A DNA stretch of 64,000 nucleotides. It comes from Sulfurovum lithotrophicum (GTDB taxonomy: Bacteria; Campylobacterota; Campylobacteria; Campylobacterales; Sulfurovaceae). The position numbers and the translations under genes are program-made. Of this stretch, positions 24,554-45,572 are shown piece by piece. The notes beneath the pieces were generated by a model. It was not told the DNA's origin. It searched no databases and was given only the letters and a program-made list of their open reading frames with translations. The stretch covers positions 372,001 through 436,000 of the forward strand of contig NZ_CP011308.1 of the NCBI RefSeq assembly GCF_000987835.1, given 5' to 3'. The number at the start of each line of letters is the position of its first letter. The stretch's first letter is position 1.

Positions 24554-24582
24554 TTGCATAATTTTTAAAAATATGATATAAT
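24554..24582 (+). promoter_or_regulatory. Promoter of riboswitch 1 and the DUF1800-DUF1501 operon
   Basis: TTGCAT (24554-24559), exactly 17 bases, then TATAAT (24577-24582). This is the best -35/-10 pair in the window. Transcription would start near 24589, about ten bases before the riboswitch P1 strand. Confidence 0.7.
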
Positions 24583-24597
24583 GAGCTCGTAATAAAA

Positions 24598-24677
24598 ATA
24601 TTGTTGTGCCAAACCTATCGTGAGGTAGGGACGGAAAGCCACGAGTCTGAGGATTCAGATAGTCGGGTTGCCAATAC
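24598..24677 (+). promoter_or_regulatory. GEMM-I (cyclic di-GMP-I type) riboswitch 1
   Basis: The aptamer core is complete. P1 strands are TATTG (24599-24603) and CAATA (24672-24676), followed by GCCAAACC. A stem CCTATC/GGTAGG carries a GTGA (GNRA) tetraloop. Next come GGGACGGAAAGCC, a second stem with TCTGA/TCAGA, and the closing GTCGGGTTGCC. This matches the GEMM-I family known to bind c-di-GMP, or 3',3'-cGAMP in some members. It lies in the 5' leader of the DUF1800 gene. The base corresponding to Vc2 G20 appears to be C (24609). See findings for the expression platform. Confidence 0.88.
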
Positions 24678-24768
24678 TCTCTTTCATACTGTTGTGAATT
24701 TAGATAGTATTCTATCCATCCTGATTGTCTTAAACCTTGTACTTAAAAAATACAAGAAGGACATTAAA

Positions 24769-27700
24769 ATGAACTACATAAATACACAGCTGGAATTTCT
24801 TTATTCCATTCGAAGATTATTCAGTTTAGTACCTTCCCCCGAGTTATATATTGATCAAAGCATAAGGCTTAAATGGAATTATCCCATATTTTTCAGATCA
24901 CTCTTTTTCTATATGATTCTAACTTCGATTGTTTTTGCGACAGCTCCGACTATAGAAGGGGAATCTGTTCAAAGTGTTATACCCGGAGAAATGTACCAAT
25001 TTCAGCCAACAGCGAATGATGTAGACGGTGATTCGTTGATTTTTCGTATCAGAAATATGCCATCATGGGCAACATTCGACAAGAATACGGGTATCTTGCG
25101 CGGGACACCGACAGTATCAGATGTCGGCTATTATAGTCATATCAATATCGGAGCATTTGACGGGGAAACAGTAACATGGTTATATCCGGAGAAAACGGAT
25201 GGTTATACCCTTCTGGTAAATACGCCGCCAACGATCAGCGGTACTCCCGAAAAAGATAAAATATTGCCTGGGGAGACTTTTAGTTTTAAACCTGTTGCAA
25301 GTGATGAGGACGGAAGTCCTTTACGCTTTAAAATATACAATCAACCGGCATGGACGGTATTTAACAGTGAAACAGGAGAACTCACGGGTACCCCCACAAC
25401 AGACGACAGGAGACGATATACATTCAATATTGGTGTAACAGACGGTCTTGAAACACGATGGTTAAACGGCAGTAAAACGGATGGTTTTTATATCAAGGTA
25501 CTTAATACTGCTCCTGTCATCAGCGGAACGCCAGCGGCAGAAGTCCTGGTTAACGACAATTATGTTTTCCAGCCGGATGCGAACGATGCAGATGGTGATG
25601 CGATCACTTTTACCATAAAGCACAAACCGGTATGGGCCACATTCGATACCGAGACGGGAAGGCTGAGCGGTACACCGTCGAAAGCCTTCGCCAACCAGAC
25701 CTTTGAAGACATTATTATCATTGCCAAAGACGGCAAAGGAGGGAAAGCACCGCTTCCGGCTTTCAGTATTACGGTAGTGAACAATCCTCCTGTCATCAGC
25801 GGAACGCCAGCGGCAGAAGTCCTGGTTAACGACAATTATGTTTTCCAGCCGGATGCGAACGATGCAGATGGTGACACGATCACTTTTACCATAAAGCACA
25901 AACCGGTATGGGCCACATTCGATACCGAGACGGGAAGGCTGAGCGGTACACCGTCGAAAGCCTTCGCCAACCAGACCTTTGAAGACATTATTATCATTGC
26001 CAAAGACGGCAAAGGAGGGAAAGCACCGCTTCCGGCTTTCAGTATTACGGTAGTGAACAATCCTCCTGTCATCAGCGGAACGCCGCCGGCAGAAGTCCTG
26101 GTTAACGACAATTATGTTTTCCAGCCGGATGCGAACGATGCAGATGGTGACACGATCACTTTTACCATAAAGCACAAACCGGTATGGGCCACATTCGATA
26201 CTGAGACGGGAAGGCTGAGCGGTACACCGTCGGAAGCTTTTGCCGATCAGACCTTTGAAGACATTATTATCATTGCCAAAGACGGCAAAGGAGGGAAAGC
26301 ACCGCTTCCGGCTTTCAGTATTACCGTACGGAATGCAGCTTATTATGATCCTGCCATTCTTGTGGGTGAGCCTGCAACGATCGCCAGGGCAGGTGAAGAG
26401 TACAGTTTTGCTCCATTTGTAGATTATTCAGGTCCCGGTTCACTTACATTTAGTATTGTCAATAAACCGACATGGGCAATTTTTGATACGAAAACTGGCA
26501 AACTCAGTGGTATACCAGGATCGAATGATATCGGTAAAACCGCAGATATTGTTATCAGTGCTTCAGCCGAGAACGATACTACTTCAAGTATGAAATCTTT
26601 TGATATCAATGTTGTCGAAACTTCCGCATCCAGGAAAGATGCATTCAAACTTCTGATACAATCAACCTTTGGGCCTACGGAACAGAGTATGGAAGAGGTA
26701 ATGCAAATGGGTATCGAAGGTTGGGTAGATGCACAGCTTAATGCCCCTTCTGCATATGACAGCAATACGGATACACATCTGACATATTTGGAACGTCATA
26801 TTGAACTTGCAAAAATGGCTAACTCCATATGGGATCAGCCTATAGAGGATTATATTGACGGTACTGCCAAATTTACCCGAACCAGTCTAGGTATCTATCG
26901 AAGTGTCTGGTTTGAAAATGCGCTGAATGCTTCGGACCAGCTCAGACAGCGTGTTGCGTTTGCTTTGAGCGAGATACTGGTTATATCTGATGGAGAGCCT
27001 GCCTTTGAAAAAAATGCAGAAGCACTTTCATACTATTACGATCTTTTGGTAAAACATGCCTTCGGTAACTACAGAGATCTGCTTATTGACATTTCCCACT
27101 CACCCGCTATGAGTATCTACTTGACATATAACGGCAGTAAAAAGCATGATGACGTAAAGAAAAACCAACCTGATGAGAACTATGCCAGAGAACTTATGCA
27201 GCTGTTCAGTCTTGGTCTCTACAAACTTGAGCTGAATGGAGAAGTAAAAACAGACGGGAACGGTAAACCGATCCCGACGTATATACAGCAGGATGTGCAA
27301 GAACTTTCCAAAGTGTTTACCGGTTGGGACCTGTACGATTATGAGGGAGGTGCATATGGGCATATCTCATTACGCAACAGTGACTTTATTCATCCTATAG
27401 AATATACAGCTGATTTTCATGATGGGGGGACAAAGTATATTTTAGGAACGACGATTGGCGCAGGACAGACAGGTGACGAAGATATTGCCTCTGCTATAGA
27501 TATATTGATGGGGAATGAAAATATTGCTCCATTTGTAAGCAAACAACTGATCGTACGCCTTGTTACCTCTAATCCCAGTGATGCCTATGTCAGCCGTGTA
27601 GCAGCGGTATTTAACGATAATGGTAAAGGAGTCAAAGGTGATTTGAAAGCGGTTGTCAGAGCGATCTTGTTGGATGAAGAGGCCCGGAGTGAATATTCGG

Positions 27701-28362
27701 AAGAGAGTAATTTCGGAAAAATGAAAGAACCGCTTCTGGCCTATACACAACTGTTGAGATCATTTGATGTTTCTCCTTATCCCTCTTTTGATGGTAATAA
27801 GTTTAATCTGAAAGATGGAGCAGACGGAATGGTGACGAATGCCTATCTTTTCAGTGATGATCTGAAATATGGTCTTGGGCAAGCTCCAACAGGGGCACCG
27901 ACGGTCTTTAACTACTTTTCACCTGACTTTGTACCGAACGATCCATATTTTCAGGAGAATGGACTTGTTGCACCTGAAATAGAGATACTGAGTGCACAGA
28001 CCATTACAAATATGAGCAACTTGTTTTTATATGATACGAGACGTAATGACCGTATGGCAGAAGATATGGTGAACTTATGTATAATCAGCTATGACAACGA
28101 AGTTTCACTTGTTTTAAAAGCTTTGAATAATAATTATGACAATATGGCAAAAGATTCCTATAAAGAGAATGCAGCAACAGCATTGATTGAATATCTTGAT
28201 GCCAAGCTTGTAAACAATCGTTTAGGTGATCAGCGCAGACAGATCATTAAAGATCATATCATGGATACATTCTATAATACAAATAGAAATGGTGCCAGAC
28301 TGATGGTGATTGATGTAATCAATCTTATTACAGCGACTAGTATCTATATGGTACAGAGATAA
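24769..28362 (+). CDS. Secreted Ig-repeat protein with C-terminal DUF1800 domain
   Basis: I start this gene at ATG 24769 (AGAAGGA, good spacing), giving 1197 residues; a longer frame begins inside the riboswitch and is rejected. About 43 residues precede a hydrophobic segment (SLFFYMILTSIVFATA) that looks like a signal peptide with a long n-region. Residues 60-620 are putative Ig (He_PIG-like) modules with the pattern ISGTP, DADGD, F..KP.WATFD, SGTP. Three are nearly identical 92-residue copies. From about 625 to the end is a DUF1800 domain (RKDAFKLLIQSTFGPTEQ, ENYARELMQLFSLGLY, LGQAPTGAPTVFNYF). DUF1800 is of unknown function and typically paired with DUF1501, as here. Confidence 0.85.
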   Translation: MNYINTQLEFLYSIRRLFSLVPSPELYIDQSIRLKWNYPIFFRSLFFYMILTSIVFATAPTIEGESVQSVIPGEMYQFQPTANDVDGDSLIFRIRNMPSWATFDKNTGILRGTPTVSDVGYYSHINIGAFDGETVTWLYPEKTDGYTLLVNTPPTISGTPEKDKILPGETFSFKPVASDEDGSPLRFKIYNQPAWTVFNSETGELTGTPTTDDRRRYTFNIGVTDGLETRWLNGSKTDGFYIKVLNTAPVISGTPAAEVLVNDNYVFQPDANDADGDAITFTIKHKPVWATFDTETGRLSGTPSKAFANQTFEDIIIIAKDGKGGKAPLPAFSITVVNNPPVISGTPAAEVLVNDNYVFQPDANDADGDTITFTIKHKPVWATFDTETGRLSGTPSKAFANQTFEDIIIIAKDGKGGKAPLPAFSITVVNNPPVISGTPPAEVLVNDNYVFQPDANDADGDTITFTIKHKPVWATFDTETGRLSGTPSEAFADQTFEDIIIIAKDGKGGKAPLPAFSITVRNAAYYDPAILVGEPATIARAGEEYSFAPFVDYSGPGSLTFSIVNKPTWAIFDTKTGKLSGIPGSNDIGKTADIVISASAENDTTSSMKSFDINVVETSASRKDAFKLLIQSTFGPTEQSMEEVMQMGIEGWVDAQLNAPSAYDSNTDTHLTYLERHIELAKMANSIWDQPIEDYIDGTAKFTRTSLGIYRSVWFENALNASDQLRQRVAFALSEILVISDGEPAFEKNAEALSYYYDLLVKHAFGNYRDLLIDISHSPAMSIYLTYNGSKKHDDVKKNQPDENYARELMQLFSLGLYKLELNGEVKTDGNGKPIPTYIQQDVQELSKVFTGWDLYDYEGGAYGHISLRNSDFIHPIEYTADFHDGGTKYILGTTIGAGQTGDEDIASAIDILMGNENIAPFVSKQLIVRLVTSNPSDAYVSRVAAVFNDNGKGVKGDLKAVVRAILLDEEARSEYSEESNFGKMKEPLLAYTQLLRSFDVSPYPSFDGNKFNLKDGADGMVTNAYLFSDDLKYGLGQAPTGAPTVFNYFSPDFVPNDPYFQENGLVAPEIEILSAQTITNMSNLFLYDTRRNDRMAEDMVNLCIISYDNEVSLVLKALNNNYDNMAKDSYKENAATALIEYLDAKLVNNRLGDQRRQIIKDHIMDTFYNTNRNGARLMVIDVINLITATSIYMVQR
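25513..26340 (+). repeat. Three tandem 276-base repeats in the DUF1800 gene
   Basis: Copies begin at 25513, 25789 and 26065, each 276 bases (92 codons), and each encodes one Ig-like module. Copies 1 and 2 are almost identical at the DNA level. Copy 3 differs mainly near its end. The low synonymous divergence points to recent duplication or gene conversion. Confidence 0.9.
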
Positions 28363-28373
28363 AAGGATTTGAT

Positions 28374-29864
28374 ATGAAAAAAGAGAGACGAGATTTTTTA
28401 CGATTGATGTACAACAGTTCTATTACTGCGGCATTGGCCCCGATGCTTGCTCCTCAAGAGATATATGCGTCTGACTCACAAACCTTTGATGATTATAAGG
28501 CAGTAGTATATATATCATTATTTGGCGGCAATGATGCCATTAATATGATTTTGCCTACTGAGAGAAGTGGTGAGGCTGGGTATGATACATATGCAGATAT
28601 CCGAAAGAATTTAGTGGTTTCGTATGATGACCTTTCTGAAGGGTTGACATTGAATACAGAGGGCAAGCTTGATTTAAGCAGCGCAAACCCTTACGATGTT
28701 GCTTCAAACCTGAATGAAGATGCCTACCGTAAAGGTATGTATCATATTGGTGATACCGGTATCGGAGTCAATGGTATGATGCCTGAGGTAGCGCAAATGA
28801 TGAATGAAAACAAGTTGGCGGTCATAGCAAGTGTCGGGACACTGGTGGTACCAAAATTTGATCCTGTCAGCAAACAAAAACTCTCAGGTGTATTTCCTGA
28901 CCAGCTTTTTGCACATGATAGGCAGCGAAGACTACAAGAGACGGGACAGGCAGACAACCCAACAGGGTATGGATGGATAGGAAGACTTTTTGACAATCTT
29001 CAGGGCATTAATGGTTCTGGAATCATTACCCAAAATATCTCATTTTCAGGACATAATCACTCTCTGGTCGGGCAACATACCTATCCGTTGGAACTTGCAA
29101 CCAATCCTGCGCACTATCAAACCAGGGCAGCAGGTGAGATCCCAACACGTCAGCAACTCAATGAATCCCTTACAGGCAATCCATTTGAACGTTTATACAA
29201 CAAGATGATAGGTAAATCATACTCTTTGGTTGATGAACTAACTAATATTTGGGACAATGCCAGAATATACAGTACTTTGGACTCTTACGGAAATTCTCTT
29301 TTTTCTTTTCCTTCAGAGGCACAGATAAATATGGAAGAAGCCCCGAGCGTTAGTTTGATAAAAAGTTTTGAAGCCATAGCCAAGATGATTGACTATGGAA
29401 AACAAAACGGATTAAAAAGGCAAGTGTTTTATATTGAACATGGAGGATACGATACCCACAGTGCTCAACTGGATATGCATCCCAAATTACTACGCGAGCT
29501 CAGTCTTGGACTTGACAAATTTCAAAAAGCCATGGATGAGATGGGTATGTCAGATAAGGTTACTGCCTTTACCGTATCAGATTTTGGCCGAAGTGTAATA
29601 GAAAACGGTGACGGTACTGACCATGCTTGGGCAGGACACAATCTTGTAATGGGTGGTGCAGTAAATGGAGGTCAGATGTATGGGGATTTTCCTCTGCTAG
29701 TTGAACAGACTGTCGATGAGAGCCGTATTATTCCGACTATAGCTATTGAACAGCAGTTCGCAACGGTACTCAAATGGTTTGGCGTGGATGACACACTTAA
29801 CAATACACTTTTCCCCAACCTGAAAAACTTTAGTCAAAGTGATCTCGGTTTTATGAAAGCTTAA
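28374..29864 (+). CDS. Tat-exported DUF1501 protein
   Basis: The 496-residue protein opens with a twin-arginine signal, KKERRDFLRLMYNSS, and a hydrophobic stretch ending near APQEIYA. The body is DUF1501, a family related to the alkaline phosphatase/sulfatase fold. It has an N-terminal VVYISLFGGNDAINM, HGGYDTHSAQ in the C-terminal half, VSDFGRSVIENGDGTDHAWAG, and NLVMGGAVNGGQMYGDFP. The Asp/His residues in the last motifs are candidate metal ligands. It follows the DUF1800 gene by 11 bases with AAAGGA, so both share the riboswitch. The substrate is unknown; processing or anchoring of the partner is one possibility. Confidence 0.87.
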   Translation: MKKERRDFLRLMYNSSITAALAPMLAPQEIYASDSQTFDDYKAVVYISLFGGNDAINMILPTERSGEAGYDTYADIRKNLVVSYDDLSEGLTLNTEGKLDLSSANPYDVASNLNEDAYRKGMYHIGDTGIGVNGMMPEVAQMMNENKLAVIASVGTLVVPKFDPVSKQKLSGVFPDQLFAHDRQRRLQETGQADNPTGYGWIGRLFDNLQGINGSGIITQNISFSGHNHSLVGQHTYPLELATNPAHYQTRAAGEIPTRQQLNESLTGNPFERLYNKMIGKSYSLVDELTNIWDNARIYSTLDSYGNSLFSFPSEAQINMEEAPSVSLIKSFEAIAKMIDYGKQNGLKRQVFYIEHGGYDTHSAQLDMHPKLLRELSLGLDKFQKAMDEMGMSDKVTAFTVSDFGRSVIENGDGTDHAWAGHNLVMGGAVNGGQMYGDFPLLVEQTVDESRIIPTIAIEQQFATVLKWFGVDDTLNNTLFPNLKNFSQSDLGFMKA

Positions 29865-39189: not shown

Positions 39190-39280
39190 TATTGTCAAAG
39201 CCAAACCACCTGAGAAGGTGGGACGGAAAGCTACGGATCTCCCCCTTTTTTTTGAGGGCAGACCGCCGGGTTGCCAAAAT
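39190..39280 (+). promoter_or_regulatory. GEMM-I (cyclic di-GMP-I type) riboswitch 2
   Basis: It shares the core with copy 1: TATTG, then GCCAAACC, stem CCACCT/AGGTGG with a GAGA (GNRA) tetraloop, GGGACGGAAAGCT, a second, longer stem with a T8 loop, and CCGCCGGGTTGCC. Conserved positions match while the stems differ in sequence with compensating changes, which supports structure. It precedes the adhesin by about 30 bases. The base aligned with Vc2 G20 is again C (39201). Confidence 0.88.
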
Positions 39281-39311: not shown

Positions 39312-42300
39312 ATGAAGTTAATTTGGTCATGGTTGAGGGCGGTTGCCCTTTTTGGTTTTTTGTTTTTAGGTTTTGGGGTTCAGTTGCATGCTGAAGGTTC
39401 CTGGCAGATGGGGCTGAATGAAGATGTAACACATGAACAGCCATTGTTTCAATGGAACAGTACTTATAATAACTCAAGTACAGGTTTGGAAGTTAAAGAA
39501 CGACCTCTCTATGTTGATATCACAAATGCAAATGAAATTATAAATATTCATATTTGTGGAGAGGCAAATGGTGATAATCTGTCCATCGAGATTTATGATG
39601 AATCGGGTACAACCTTACTGGATTCCACGACAATGAATAGCTCAAATGTCGATTGTACTGATGATTTTAATGGTATATTGAGTGGAGGATATGAGTTTAT
39701 TCCAGGAGCAGTAGGTACCTATCAGATACGTTTAGACAATACACAAGGGACGCAAGATGTTTTAAAACGCTTTGATGTATTTGTCAAGACAAACCCTGGT
39801 GATGATGTGGACCCACGTATAGATCAAGGGCGGCTTTGGGCCTATAGATGGGCTTTTGATGCAGGTTCTTTTGGAGATAGCCACTCCACCAGTGCCAATT
39901 TATACGCTGTGGTTGACGGTGGGTTTAATGGCAGTTATTATACATGGGAACTTGATCTTGACCATTTTGCCGGATATGTATACGAATTAACAGCAAATAA
40001 TTTGGGACTTACGAGTCCTAATGCTGATGGAACGATTGTTGCCGCTTTGAGTGGATGTATTGATTCAGATAGTGCGGCACCCTGTCCTTCTGTATCTGGA
40101 AATAGAAACTATGTTGAAGCGCAATATAAACTTTATCTTTCCAACCCTGCTGCTTCTTACCCCAGGCCCACAACGCTGCCTGAGATTACAAATTTCCATT
40201 TTCTTGATGATCAAGGTGTTGATGATTCGATCTCACCAAGTGACACAGTGACAGTACAGGATACAGGAAACTTTCTCTTTACAACAAACTTGGCAATAAG
40301 TGGAACCTATACCATTATAATAGATGTAAACAATGATGATGTTTTTGGTAGTGGGGATGTATTTCTGAACGGAACAGCTGTACCTGGAGACAATAGTGTT
40401 AACTGGAATGGCGTAGATAATAGTGGTAATACCGTTCCTAATGGTACTTACAAAGCACAGATCGTTCTTAAAACAGGAGAGTTTCACTTTACTGCCGCGG
40501 ATGCAGAAACAAGTGGTGGTTCAGGTAATAATGGTTTGACAATCAATGCAGTTTTAGATAATGGTAGTATTGATACATCGAATAAAGTTTACTGGGATGA
40601 TAATAGTTATTTAGGGTTGACACATGCCGATTCATATAATGCAGACGGAACATATAAATACCACAATTGGGGTGATTTTACAAGTGGTGGTGATGGAAAT
40701 AAAGCATATTTGGATACTTATTCTATAGGAGCGACTTCCCAACCCGTCTTTCTTCGTTTGGCTATAGAACCTGATGATACGCCTCGGACCAAAATGACAG
40801 GCAAGGTATTTGACGATGCAAACGGCAACGGTGCATATGATTCTGGTGAAACAGGTTTCTCCAACATCACGATAGCTATTACAGATACGACAGGAACATT
40901 TTTTGTTTCAACAGATACAAATGGAGATTATGTAGCGTATACTTCGGCAACTGAATCCAGTGTAGTCATTGACGTAAATGAATCCACTCTCCCCGTAGGT
41001 TATGCCCAAACAGCGGGAACAGACCCCGAAACTGTTGATGTTTCAGCAGGCGGAACAATTTCAGTGGGAGATGATGGATATCAAGTACAAGCGGATCTTC
41101 GCACAACTAAAGTCGTGGATAAAGTATCTCCCAATGTTGGCGATACAGTTACCTATACGTTAACTGTCACAAATAATGGTCCCGCAGAAGCAACAAATGT
41201 AAGTTTGACAGATCAACTTCCAACTGGAATTACTTATGCTTCCAATACTCCAAGCCAGGGAACTTATAACTCTGGTACAGGTATTTGGACCATAGGAACA
41301 TTGGCAAATGGTGCAAGTGCGAACTTGACACTTTCAGGAACTGTTGATTCTGGAACATCTTTGTTGACAATTACTAACTTTACAACTTCGGCTACAGGAG
41401 ATCAAGCTGATCCAACTAATGTAAATGATGATCTTAATGAGTCTTTGACAGTAGTAAACAGGGGGCCTGCTGCAGTTAACGATAGTTATACAGTTGCTGA
41501 GGATAGTAGTGTGACTTTGTTACCATTAACAGCTGATAGCGATCCTGATGGTGACAGTATAGGGGTTGTTTCTATTAATGGTGTGACTTTGACCCCGGGT
41601 GTAGCACAAACGATTCTTGTAACAAACGGAACCGTAACTGTTGATGCAGTAGGTGTGATCACATTCACGCCAGATACAAACTATAATGGGCTGGTAAGTT
41701 TCCCGTATGTAATAAGTGATGGAAAAGGTGCTACAGCTACAGCAAATGAGAATATTACGGTCAACGGGGTGAACGATACACCAACAAGCACACCGATCGC
41801 CGACCAGACAAATGCCGATGCCGATACGCCAAGCGTGAATGTAAGCGGCAACTTCTCGGATCCGGACGGGGACACACTGACATACTCGGCGACAGGATTG
41901 CCAACAGGACTGAGCATCGATCCAAATACAGGAGTGATCAGCGGGACGATCGATAAATCGGCCAGCCAAAGCGGGCCGTACAGCGTCACGGTGACTGCAA
42001 AAGATTCAAGTAATGCAAGCACCAGCGAGACATTCAGTTGGACGGTAACCAACCCTGCACCGACAGCCAACCCGGATACAGGAAGCACAGCAGAAGATAC
42101 ACAATTGGTTGTGGCTGCGACAGGCGTACTGGGGAATGATACGGATCCAGATGGAGATACGCTTTCGGTGACTGGATATAATGTTGGTGCGAACACTGCA
42201 ACCGTAGGCAATCCGCTGGTACTGACAGAAGGTAACCTTACCATTGCAGCAGACGGTTCTTACACGTTTGATCCGGCAGCGAACTTTAACGGTCCTGTTC

Positions 42301-45300
42301 CGGCAGTAACCTATGCTATCAGTGACAGTAACGGCGGAACATCCAGTTCAACGCTTACAATTACAGTCACACCTCAAAACGATACACCGACAAGCACACC
42401 GATCGCCGACCAGACAAATGCCGATGCCGATACGCCAAGCGTGAATGTAAGCGGCAACTTCTCGGATCCGGACGGGGACACACTGACATACTCGGCGACA
42501 GGATTGCCAACAGGACTGAGCATCGATCCAAATACAGGAGTGATCAGCGGGACGATCGATAAATCGGCCAGCCAAAGCGGGCCGTACAGCGTCACGGTGA
42601 CTGCAAAAGATTCAAGTAATGCAAGCACCAGCGAGACATTCAGTTGGACGGTAACCAACCCTGCACCGACAGCCAACCCGGATACAGGAAGCACAGCAGA
42701 AGATACACAATTGGTTGTGGCTGCGACAGGCGTACTGGGGAATGATACGGATCCAGATGGAGATACGCTTTCGGTGACTGGATATAATGTTGGTGCGAAC
42801 ACTGCAACCGTAGGCAATCCGCTGGTACTGACAGAAGGTAACCTTACCATTGCAGCAGACGGTTCTTACACGTTTGATCCGGCAGCGAACTTTAACGGTC
42901 CTGTTCCGGCAGTAACCTATGCTATCAGTGACAGTAACGGCGGAACATCCAGTTCAACGCTTACAATTACAGTCACAGCAGTAGATGACCCGACAGTAGT
43001 CGCAGATGACAGTGCAACGACAGAAGAAGATACGCCGGTTGATATAGATGTTTTGGCAAACGATACTGATCCGGAAGGTACAAAGTCACCTGTAGCTTCA
43101 GTGACGGATGGGGAGCATGGAACAGTAACGATCAATCCTGATGGAACAGTAAAATATACTCCAGAAGAAAACTATAATGGCACAGATACCTTTACCTATA
43201 CAAATGAGGAAGGTAATACGGCAACGGTGACTGTTACAATAGACCCGGTTAACGATGCACCGGTAGCAGAAGATGACAGTCAGTCAACACCTATCAATAC
43301 AGCGGTATCAGTACCGGTACTGAACAATGATCATGATGTGGATGGTGATGTATTGGCAATAGTTGATGTTAATACGACAGATACCAATGGGACGGTGACA
43401 TTTGATGCGAATGGAACAGTAATCTTTACACCTGATACAGACTTTATCGGCACCACGGCATTTATCTATACAATAAGTGACGGAAATGGCGGGACAGATA
43501 TGGCAGTGGTGATCATTACTGTAACCGATCCTCAAGATCCGGAATCCAATTCCGTGGCGGCAGTTGCTGACAGTGCCAGTACGGACAATACAGCTTCTAT
43601 AGATATTCCGGTACTGAACAATGACTATGACCCTGAAGGCGATGAGTTTAATCTTACAACTATCATAACTCAACCATCCAATGGTACGGTGAGTATAGAA
43701 GATAACGGAACCCCTAATGATCCGTCGGATGACTATATTATCTATGATCCAAATACAGGATTTGTGGGTACGGATACGTTCGAGTATGAGATCACTGATG
43801 CAAACGGCAATACAGATGTAGCTATCGTTACTGTAACCGTTGTGGATCCTGCGACTGATGCTGTGCCGAATGCTGTGGCTGACGGTGCAACGACTGACCA
43901 GGAATTACCTGTAAGCATAGATGTATTGGGCAACGATACGCATCCTGACAATGATGATCTCAATATCACAGCATTCACCGAACCGTCAAATGGTACAGTG
44001 ACACTCGATGATAACGGGACACCTGATGATCCGACTGATGACAGGCTTGTCTATAGGCCGAATGCAGGATTCAGCGGCCATGATACCTTTATGTATACCA
44101 TTACTGACGAGAACGGTGATACTGCTTCAGCGGCAGTCACGGTAACTGTTGTTGCCGCTCCGGATGTCCTCATAGGAGATGCAATGATCGTAGAGGGTGG
44201 TGACCTTGTGTTTGATGTCAATCTTACACATGCCTATGGTGAAGACATTAACCTAACATTGACATTGGAAGATAATACGACAACCCAAGGTGAGGATTAT
44301 ATACCCACAACAGTAACAGTAGTGATCCCTGCTGGATCAACACATGTTACGGCATCAGTTAGCACAGAAGATGATGGACTGGTAGAGGCAGATGAATATC
44401 TTGATATCCATATCAGTACAGTCAATAGCGGTTCGGTAGGAGATAGTTCAGATACAGGAAGAGGAACAATTATTGATAATGACACACCGCCAACTGCTGA
44501 AGATGATAATGTGAATGCTACAAACGGAAGTGAGGTGACCATAGATGTCATACAGAATGATATTAATGGAACTTCAGACTTAAATGCATCAACGGTACGT
44601 ATTATAGATCCTGTTAATGGAGAGGTTACAACATATATTGTACCTGGTGAAGGTACCTGGACTGTCGACCCTGATACCGGAAAGATAACTTTTACTCCCG
44701 AACAAGGGTATGTGGGTGATCCAACACCGATTGAATATATCGTCTATGATGTAGACGGTAACAGTGATATAGGTAGGGTAACCATTAATTATATGCCGCT
44801 GGCAAACAATGATTCATATGGTCCTGTATTTGAAGGTGAGACTGCCACTCTTGATATCCTGAATAATGATATTAATACCTCATCACCATTGGATTCGACA
44901 CGCGTAAGTCTTGTACCTGGTACAGATGCAATAAATGTTTTGACGGATAGTGAAGGTGATGTGATAGGATTTACCGTACCTGATGAAGGAATGTGGTCTG
45001 TAGATGAAAGCACTGGTGAAGTTACATTTGATCCGGATGGAAATTTAGAGACTTCGGACCCGACACCGATTCAGTATACTGTCAGAGAAGAAAATGGTGA
45101 GGAAAGTAATAAAGCATTGATCAGTATTCACTATAGTGGAGGTCCAAATGCAACAGACAACCTTGATGTACCGGTCAGCTCTTATGCTCCGATAGTCATT
45201 GATGTATTGGCAAACAATGATGATTGGGGAGCGTTCGGTCCGGGAACGGAAAGCATCTCCTTTACCCAGCCGACATATGGTAATGTAGCATTGGATGATG

Positions 45301-45572
45301 GCGGTACACCGAATGATCCAACAGATGATGTATTGATCTATACGCCTGCAGCGGATATAAACAATGTAACAGATACCTTTACCTATACGATCACTGATGC
45401 AGAAGGCCATACTTCTACAGCGATTGTTACAGTCGATATAGATTGTACAAGTTCACAATCTTCTGATGGCGGTGATGCTTTAGGTTCTTTGGGTATGCTT
45501 ATGATGATGTTTATGACCCTGTTATCGGGATTCTATTTTGTTAGAAGAGAAGAAAGAAGAGGAGAGATATAA
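39312..45572 (+). CDS. Giant cadherin-like surface adhesin
   Basis: The 2086-residue protein has an N-terminal signal peptide (cleavage likely after LHA, residue ~27) and a unique N-terminal region. A FlgD-like Ig segment (about 290-400), an SdrD-B-like module (about 495-597; [17 protein letters not shown]) and a DUF11 module (about 597-717) follow. Then come many cadherin-like/Big_9 modules with DxDGD calcium motifs (about 717-1616), a Calx-beta module (about 1617-1727) and more cadherin-like modules. The C-terminus is [10 protein letters not shown], a hydrophobic helix and RREERR, a tripartite sorting-type tail. It is probably a calcium-rigidified adhesin. Start ATG 39312 after AAGGGG. It overlaps the next gene by one base. 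Confidence 0.88.
41772..42977 (+). repeat. 606-base tandem duplication in the adhesin
   Basis: Bases 41772-42371 and 42378-42977 are the same except for one synonymous change that I could find (CCAACA against CCGACA near the start). The unit encodes 202 residues: a dystroglycan-type Ig module plus a cadherin-like module. Confidence 0.92.

Follow-up and report, generated by a model that had tools for sequence, protein, structure and literature searches.

Genes for DUF1800 and DUF1501 proteins sit next to each other in many bacterial phyla, and in the order Campylobacterales such pairs recur behind riboswitches for cyclic di-GMP (c-di-GMP), the second messenger that tells cells to settle. We analyzed one of them in Sulfurovum lithotrophicum, whose genome is a single contig of 2,217,891 bases, within a stretch of 64,000 nucleotides (nt) (NZ_CP011308.1, positions 372,001 to 436,000; hereafter the window, to which coordinates refer unless another locus is named). 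On the plus strand, a c-di-GMP-I riboswitch aptamer (24599..24676) is followed after 92 nt by a gene for an exported protein of 1197 amino acids (aa) with immunoglobulin-like (Ig) repeats and a DUF1800 domain (24769..28362, ATG to stop), and after a further 11 nt by a gene for a 496-aa DUF1501 protein with a signal of the twin-arginine translocation (Tat) type (28374..29864). Our tentative reading is of an exported system regulated by c-di-GMP: DUF1501 may be a metalloenzyme whose substrates are envelope polymers, and DUF1800 a partner targeted to the surface. New here are a second riboswitch-led pair in the same genome, an order-wide association of pair and riboswitch, a predicted fold of the alkaline phosphatase (AP) superfamily for DUF1501, and the polysaccharide-gene context of related pairs.

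We found no function for DUF1800 or DUF1501 in the open literature, where only a handful of papers mention either. As of 2015, DUF1501 was without any biochemical characterization (PMC4452313). DUF1800-DUF1501 operons adjoin bacterial chitin synthase genes in Pectobacterium, Dickeya and Agrobacterium vitis; that report remarks on the Tat motif and gives no function for the pair (PMC5122149). In a search of mostly open-access literature, no paper tied c-di-GMP riboswitches to either family or to Campylobacterota.

A c-di-GMP riboswitch leads the operon

The window's aptamer scored 62.0 bits against the Rfam covariance model RF01051, above the gathering cut-off of 35, and 59.2 bits against RF03167 of the same Rfam clan. 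Because RF01051 scores higher and the A47-equivalent position is an A, we dropped a "GGC variant" label derived from RF03167 and treat the aptamer as an ordinary c-di-GMP-I riboswitch. Together with Pfam scores for both proteins and the coordinates above, this confirms the tight two-gene operon behind a riboswitch that a sequence-only reading of the window had described.

Comparison across relatives points to a conserved RNA structure. Twenty-six homologous riboswitches share one common fold, with 97.6% of cells paired. Both sides change in 14 of the 19 base pairs, a degree of covariation that none of 500 shuffles matched. Columns G10 and A37 (numbering of the first sequence) are invariant in all 26 copies, and we take them to be the equivalents of G20 and A47 in the Vc2 structure, presumably forming a pocket of the c-di-GMP rather than the cyclic GMP-AMP (cGAMP) type. 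A cGAMP-type GEMM riboswitch was rejected since, under this assumed numbering, the G20 equivalent is G in every copy.

Directly 5' of the aptamer lies a promoter-like site, TTGCAT-N17-TATAAT (24554..24582, plus strand). Its −10 element TATAAT (24577–24582) stands 16 nt ahead of the aptamer; its −35 element TTGCAT is weak, matching three of six consensus positions, and a consensus promoter scan did not list the site. A comparable TATAAT precedes many of the homologous riboswitches. Because these −10 sites stand just ahead of the aptamers, the aptamer would begin near the start of the transcript.

Predicted folding of the leader (24677..24768, plus strand), which carries the Shine-Dalgarno sequence GAAGG ahead of the ATG, hints at how ligand binding might set expression. 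In the free RNA, the aptamer's 3' arm is predicted to pair with about 24713–24727, and this alternative pairing is a plausible switch. In the window's leader the Shine-Dalgarno sequence is predicted to be less accessible with the aptamer formed; other leaders show no difference or the opposite. A terminator scan listed no intrinsic terminator in the window's leader.

The association is strong within one order

We surveyed 219 Campylobacterales genomes and found DUF1800 in 18, DUF1501 in 39, and 81 riboswitches above cut-off in 37. Nineteen of 65 DUF1501 genes lie 2.2–4.8 kb downstream of a same-strand riboswitch, where chance placement expects 0.17; most of these 19 come from a single genus (g9) and therefore do not count as independent events. 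In the loci that we fetched, the riboswitch stands directly 5' of the DUF1800-type partner gene. On the DUF1501 tree, the riboswitch label appears both in a divergent clade and in a canonical one, the two being deeply separated, and in three families, requiring seven changes (0 of 500 shuffles were as low). Because the label sits in two such clades, riboswitch control of the pair was probably acquired at least twice.

Canonical riboswitch-driven pairs occur in the window and in genome G034. As a further case, in G034 (locus L090, 1895–12729, contig C2), a riboswitch leads a six-gene operon that ends in two DUF1800-DUF1501 pairs and starts with a multihaem lipoprotein resembling MtrC/F and a Tat-signal DUF2202 protein, which connects DUF1800-DUF1501 with proteins that may act in extracellular redox reactions. 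Another arrangement occurs in G173 (L092, 2431–8764), where a divergent pair is tandemly duplicated and the riboswitch lies directly ahead of the second copy only. In G202 (L073), a DUF4214-repeat protein is encoded behind a c-di-GMP-I riboswitch.

In what we scanned beyond this order, the pairing persists and the riboswitch does not. We scanned 80 loci from named genomes, mostly of other phyla. DUF1501 follows DUF1800 directly or nearly directly at 78 of them, one exception being cut by a contig end, and the wide pairing noted in the sequence-only reading thus proves to be near-universal. No DUF1800-DUF1501 fusion occurs among the 80 loci; the long open reading frames that overlap lie in other frames. 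None of the 80 has a riboswitch ahead of the pair, although several contigs end before the expected position, and we rejected an association general to bacteria. The regulatory link is confined to one bacterial order in the data examined. Co-occurrence with GEMM riboswitches, which the earlier reading had offered as a check, is therefore far above chance in Campylobacterales but not a general rule. In Photobacterium sanctipauli (L121, 5231–5311), a c-di-GMP-I riboswitch near the pair points away from it and faces a gene for a 226-aa secreted-looking protein.

A second pair and its polysaccharide neighborhood

The S. lithotrophicum genome contains five c-di-GMP-I riboswitches, two of which drive DUF1800 or DUF1800-like genes paired with DUF1501. 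One of the five targets the window's pair; the targets of the other four are the gene for a 2086-aa adhesin (also in the window), several PilJ-like genes in a row, a gene for a PAS protein, and the operon at locus L009. The last comprises a riboswitch, a gene for a 527-aa protein, and a second DUF1501 gene (4839–6227 of L009). No Pfam model matches the 527-aa family, and profile comparison identifies its alignment as a divergent DUF1800 at 96.9% probability; the DUF1800 motif PDENYARE appears there as PEDNGRE. The second DUF1501 scores 41.7 bits with Pfam and keeps the GxDxH, (D/E)FGR and G(T/W)DH motifs. A gene for a GGDEF protein and pilin-like genes adjoin this pair.

The L009 pair is convergent with a capsule-type cluster that encodes KpsS-like and other Capsule_synth proteins, a rhamnosyltransferase-like protein, RmlA, and further Rml-type proteins (RmlB/C/D by sequence appearance). 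CysD, CysN, CysC and CysQ, which provide and recycle activated sulfate, are encoded in the same cluster. The run CysD-CysN-CysC-CysQ and the Rml-type genes occupy 6078–10483 of L197 together with 609–3912 of L009. This gene content suggests that the capsule of this genome is sulfated. For scale, positions no more than 5 kb from a family-2 glycosyltransferase make up about 4% of the genome.

Comparable surroundings recur in other genomes. Among the divergent pairs driven by a riboswitch, about half, the L009 pair included, are found within polysaccharide clusters, and several of these contain genes for sulfate activation. In G040, G140 and G093, the pair follows sulfate-activation genes including CysC/CysQ (CysD/CysN by eye) and precedes a WecA-like gene. 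Near the riboswitch-driven pairs of three further genomes we found MBOAT and Rml-type genes (G173), Rml-type genes and glycosyltransferases (G003), and an epimerase, DegT and apparent sialic-acid-type genes (G215). The neighbors of such pairs outside this genome include RmlA and RmlB-type genes.

DUF1501 is predicted to share the alkaline phosphatase fold

The window's DUF1501 protein matches PF07394 (E = 1e-29; 104.3 bits against a curated cut-off of 27). It carries the Tat-type motif RRDFL, and a pattern of the RRxF type is present in 59 of 65 DUF1501 sequences that we compared across many phyla. TatC is encoded in the same genome (E = 2.7e-70). Motif and machinery mark the protein as a putative Tat substrate.

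A sequence search for solved relatives of DUF1501 found none convincing, with ENPP4 appearing only at E = 0.56. Its predicted model (predicted local distance difference test, pLDDT, 85.5) matched solved structures in Foldseek with E down to 6e-5, and all 40 matches at E ≤ 0.001 belong to the AP superfamily, among them carrageenan sulfatases, MCR-1 and LtaS. VIA-align superposed the model on NPP phosphodiesterases over about 245 residues (Z about 18, root-mean-square deviation (rmsd) 3.0–3.5). DUF1501 is thus predicted to share the AP-superfamily fold, which makes an enzymatic role plausible.

Nine positions are invariant in all 65 compared sequences: D54, H181, R349, D360, H362, D/E403, R406, D416 and H417. 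These include many Asp and His residues of the kind that the AP metal-ligand set requires, yet DF stands where the DH pair is expected, and no metal is present in the model. The best candidate for a nucleophile, T156, is present in 36 of the 65 sequences and replaced by Pro in 18.

DUF1800 is predicted to be an all-alpha domain behind Ig repeats

The partner protein matches PF08811 over residues 628–1190 (E = 4.7e-85; 286.7 bits against a curated cut-off of 26.1). The corresponding region (26650..28338, plus strand) is modeled confidently as an all-alpha fold (pLDDT 86.9; predicted template modeling score 0.91). Neither a sequence search for solved relatives of DUF1800 nor Foldseek with this model (E ≤ 0.001) gave a convincing match. 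RsaA, the Caulobacter S-layer protein, was tried as a fold match and not used, its best VIA-align result (Z 5.2, rmsd 7.6) being below noise.

Ahead of this domain, Pfam He_PIG matches six stretches (E = 5.7e-47). Three tandem copies of 276 bp each (25511..26328, plus strand) are 94–99% identical, a sign of recent repeat expansion. Long DUF1800 proteins elsewhere bear PA14, GLEYA, F5/8C, CBM-like, PKD, cadherin and CHRD domains. The export signal looks Sec-like by sequence, with a hydrophobic peak at residues 45–55. Within the stretch encoded by 24769–24906, the hydrophobic core begins at about residue 40, after an unusually long N-region, and by eye we saw no alternative ATG, GTG or TTG start before it.

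Neighboring genes and other riboswitch targets

Upstream of the operon lies dnaX on the opposite strand, and leuS begins 100 nt past the DUF1501 gene (both named from sequence appearance). Given these flanks, the transcription unit most likely consists of two genes. A second c-di-GMP-I riboswitch of the window, identified with Rfam (39191..39279, plus strand), presumably belongs to the same regulon; an ATG 32 nt past its end opens the gene for the 2086-aa surface protein with Ig, cadherin and DUF11 domains (39312..45572, plus strand). The window thus holds two riboswitch-driven surface operons less than 15 kb apart. Elsewhere in the genome (L010, 6720–10106; from position 598719 of the contig onward), a c-di-GMP-I riboswitch leads a series of four genes. 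The first encodes a PilJ domain, those that follow are alike in sequence, and a large sensor-like gene lies downstream. In all, the other c-di-GMP-I riboswitch targets are adhesins, PilJ-domain proteins and secreted proteins.

What the pair may do

Riboswitch sharing, sugar-coat gene clusters and a fold typical of enzymes that remove sulfate or phosphate together suggest that the pair may trim or modify outer polymers. A change in c-di-GMP level would act through the riboswitch to set expression of the two-gene operon. The DUF1800 protein would leave the cytoplasm by a Sec-type signal, as a lipoprotein in many relatives, and DUF1501 would be exported folded through Tat. Outside the cell, DUF1501 would act as a metal-dependent enzyme of AP fold. 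Its substrate would be a polymer of the envelope or the extracellular space, such as a polysaccharide of the capsule, O-antigen or matrix type, from which it would hydrolyze, or on which it would transfer, a phosphoryl, sulfuryl or similar group. Through N-terminal Ig or other binding domains, the DUF1800 protein would hold or target it at the surface. The activity, the polymer substrate and the complex are each inferred, and we favor this account at somewhat below even confidence.

The surface or matrix role suggested by the sequence-only reading gains support from the company of the riboswitch targets, the polysaccharide clusters, and the binding or adhesive N-terminal domains of DUF1800 relatives. 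Its guess that DUF1501 is an enzyme gains plausibility from the predicted AP-type fold.

Several observations count against an enzyme acting on polysaccharide under c-di-GMP control. Across the 65 compared DUF1501 sequences, no Ser, Thr or formylglycine-forming Cys is conserved where the AP superfamily expects a nucleophile, and the His of the SDHG-type motif is Phe (SDFGR); the chemistry may therefore not be of the AP type. The divergent DUF1501 clade, whose members are often driven by a riboswitch, has lost D54. In the window, the genes on either side of the pair are housekeeping genes, and the pair is not in a polysaccharide cluster. About half of the riboswitch-driven divergent loci have no polysaccharide genes nearby, and the riboswitch-driven pairs of G067, G080, G117, G130 and G205 have none in the stretch examined. 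The genome's only Sulfotransfer_1 match lies far away. Outside families f1, f4 and f16 of Campylobacterales, most pairs of the order lack the riboswitch, and across the 80 named-genome loci no constant third gene stands beside the pair.

Some of these points suit a non-enzymatic surface complex, in which the AP fold of DUF1501 would serve as a metal-binding scaffold and DUF1501 and DUF1800 together would build a layer for adhesion or structure, either matrix or similar to an S-layer. This layer would be under c-di-GMP control, as the 2086-aa adhesin presumably is. The Ig repeats on the window's protein, the adhesive domains on DUF1800 relatives, the surface adhesins among other riboswitch targets and the missing nucleophile would all fit, and the S-layer protein RsaA, the best though unreliable fold match for DUF1800, points the same way. 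However, nine polar residues in AP-type loops are strictly kept across phyla and DUF1501 appears to be exported folded by Tat, which together indicate a cofactor-bearing enzyme; DUF1501 itself also has no adhesive repeats. We regard such a complex as possible but, on balance, unlikely. A bolder form of the enzymatic account would make DUF1501 a new class of exported enzyme, with an AP fold and an active site rebuilt without a Ser/Thr/Cys nucleophile. With DUF1800 as targeting subunit, it would remodel sulfated or phosphorylated polysaccharide in the c-di-GMP attachment program of Campylobacterota, and other polymers in other phyla. This form is speculative, and we think it unlikely.

The near-obligate adjacency (78 of 80 loci), the short intergenic gaps between genes for two exported proteins and the lack of a constant third gene could also mean that DUF1501 modifies its partner, attaching a group to the DUF1800 protein or its glycan or taking one off, and thereby activates or anchors it. 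Adjacency fits a complex equally well, however, and the polysaccharide genes around related pairs hint at an external polymer; we find modification of the partner improbable. That same context (CysDNC with CysQ, Rml, KpsS-like and WecA-like genes), together with the chitin synthase operons of other bacteria (PMC5122149), would suit an accessory role in which the pair helps to secrete or attach a capsule that is sulfated or phosphorylated, without catalysis on the finished polymer. Many genomes have the pair without such neighbors, as does the window, and this role too has little probability. Finally, the riboswitch may be incidental: one ancestral leader copied ahead of one pair, then inherited or duplicated, and functionally meaningless. 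The predominance of genus g9 among the riboswitch-driven cases lends this some weight. But the riboswitch is carried in two deeply separated DUF1501 clades and three families, it precedes canonical pairs in the window and G034, and it has been kept over long divergence with strong covariation, all of which make an incidental leader very improbable.

Comparison with known systems

The pairs span many phyla, and a ligand, a fold, candidate active-site residues and a polysaccharide context now yield a short list of direct assays. The window's pair conforms to the Pfam DUF1800/DUF1501 operon in exceeding both curated cut-offs, in gene order and in its short gap; it differs in the c-di-GMP riboswitch ahead, and the genome's second pair differs in having a partner invisible to Pfam models. 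The chitin synthase operons (PMC5122149) share the gene pair and the Tat motif and adjoin a polysaccharide synthase, whereas the window's operon is riboswitch-controlled and without chitin synthase. For c-di-GMP-I (GEMM-I) regulons, the literature searched yielded no mention of DUF1800-DUF1501 as a recurrent target; the aptamer exceeds its cut-off and the accompanying targets are of the adhesin, PilJ-domain and secreted kinds, and the pair extends the c-di-GMP riboswitch regulon in Campylobacterota. Unlike the AP superfamily, DUF1501 lacks a conserved Ser/Thr/Cys nucleophile and has SDFGR in place of SDHG, but it resembles the polysaccharide sulfatases, the MCR-1/LtaS-type transferases and NPP in its predicted fold and its Asp/His-rich conserved loops.

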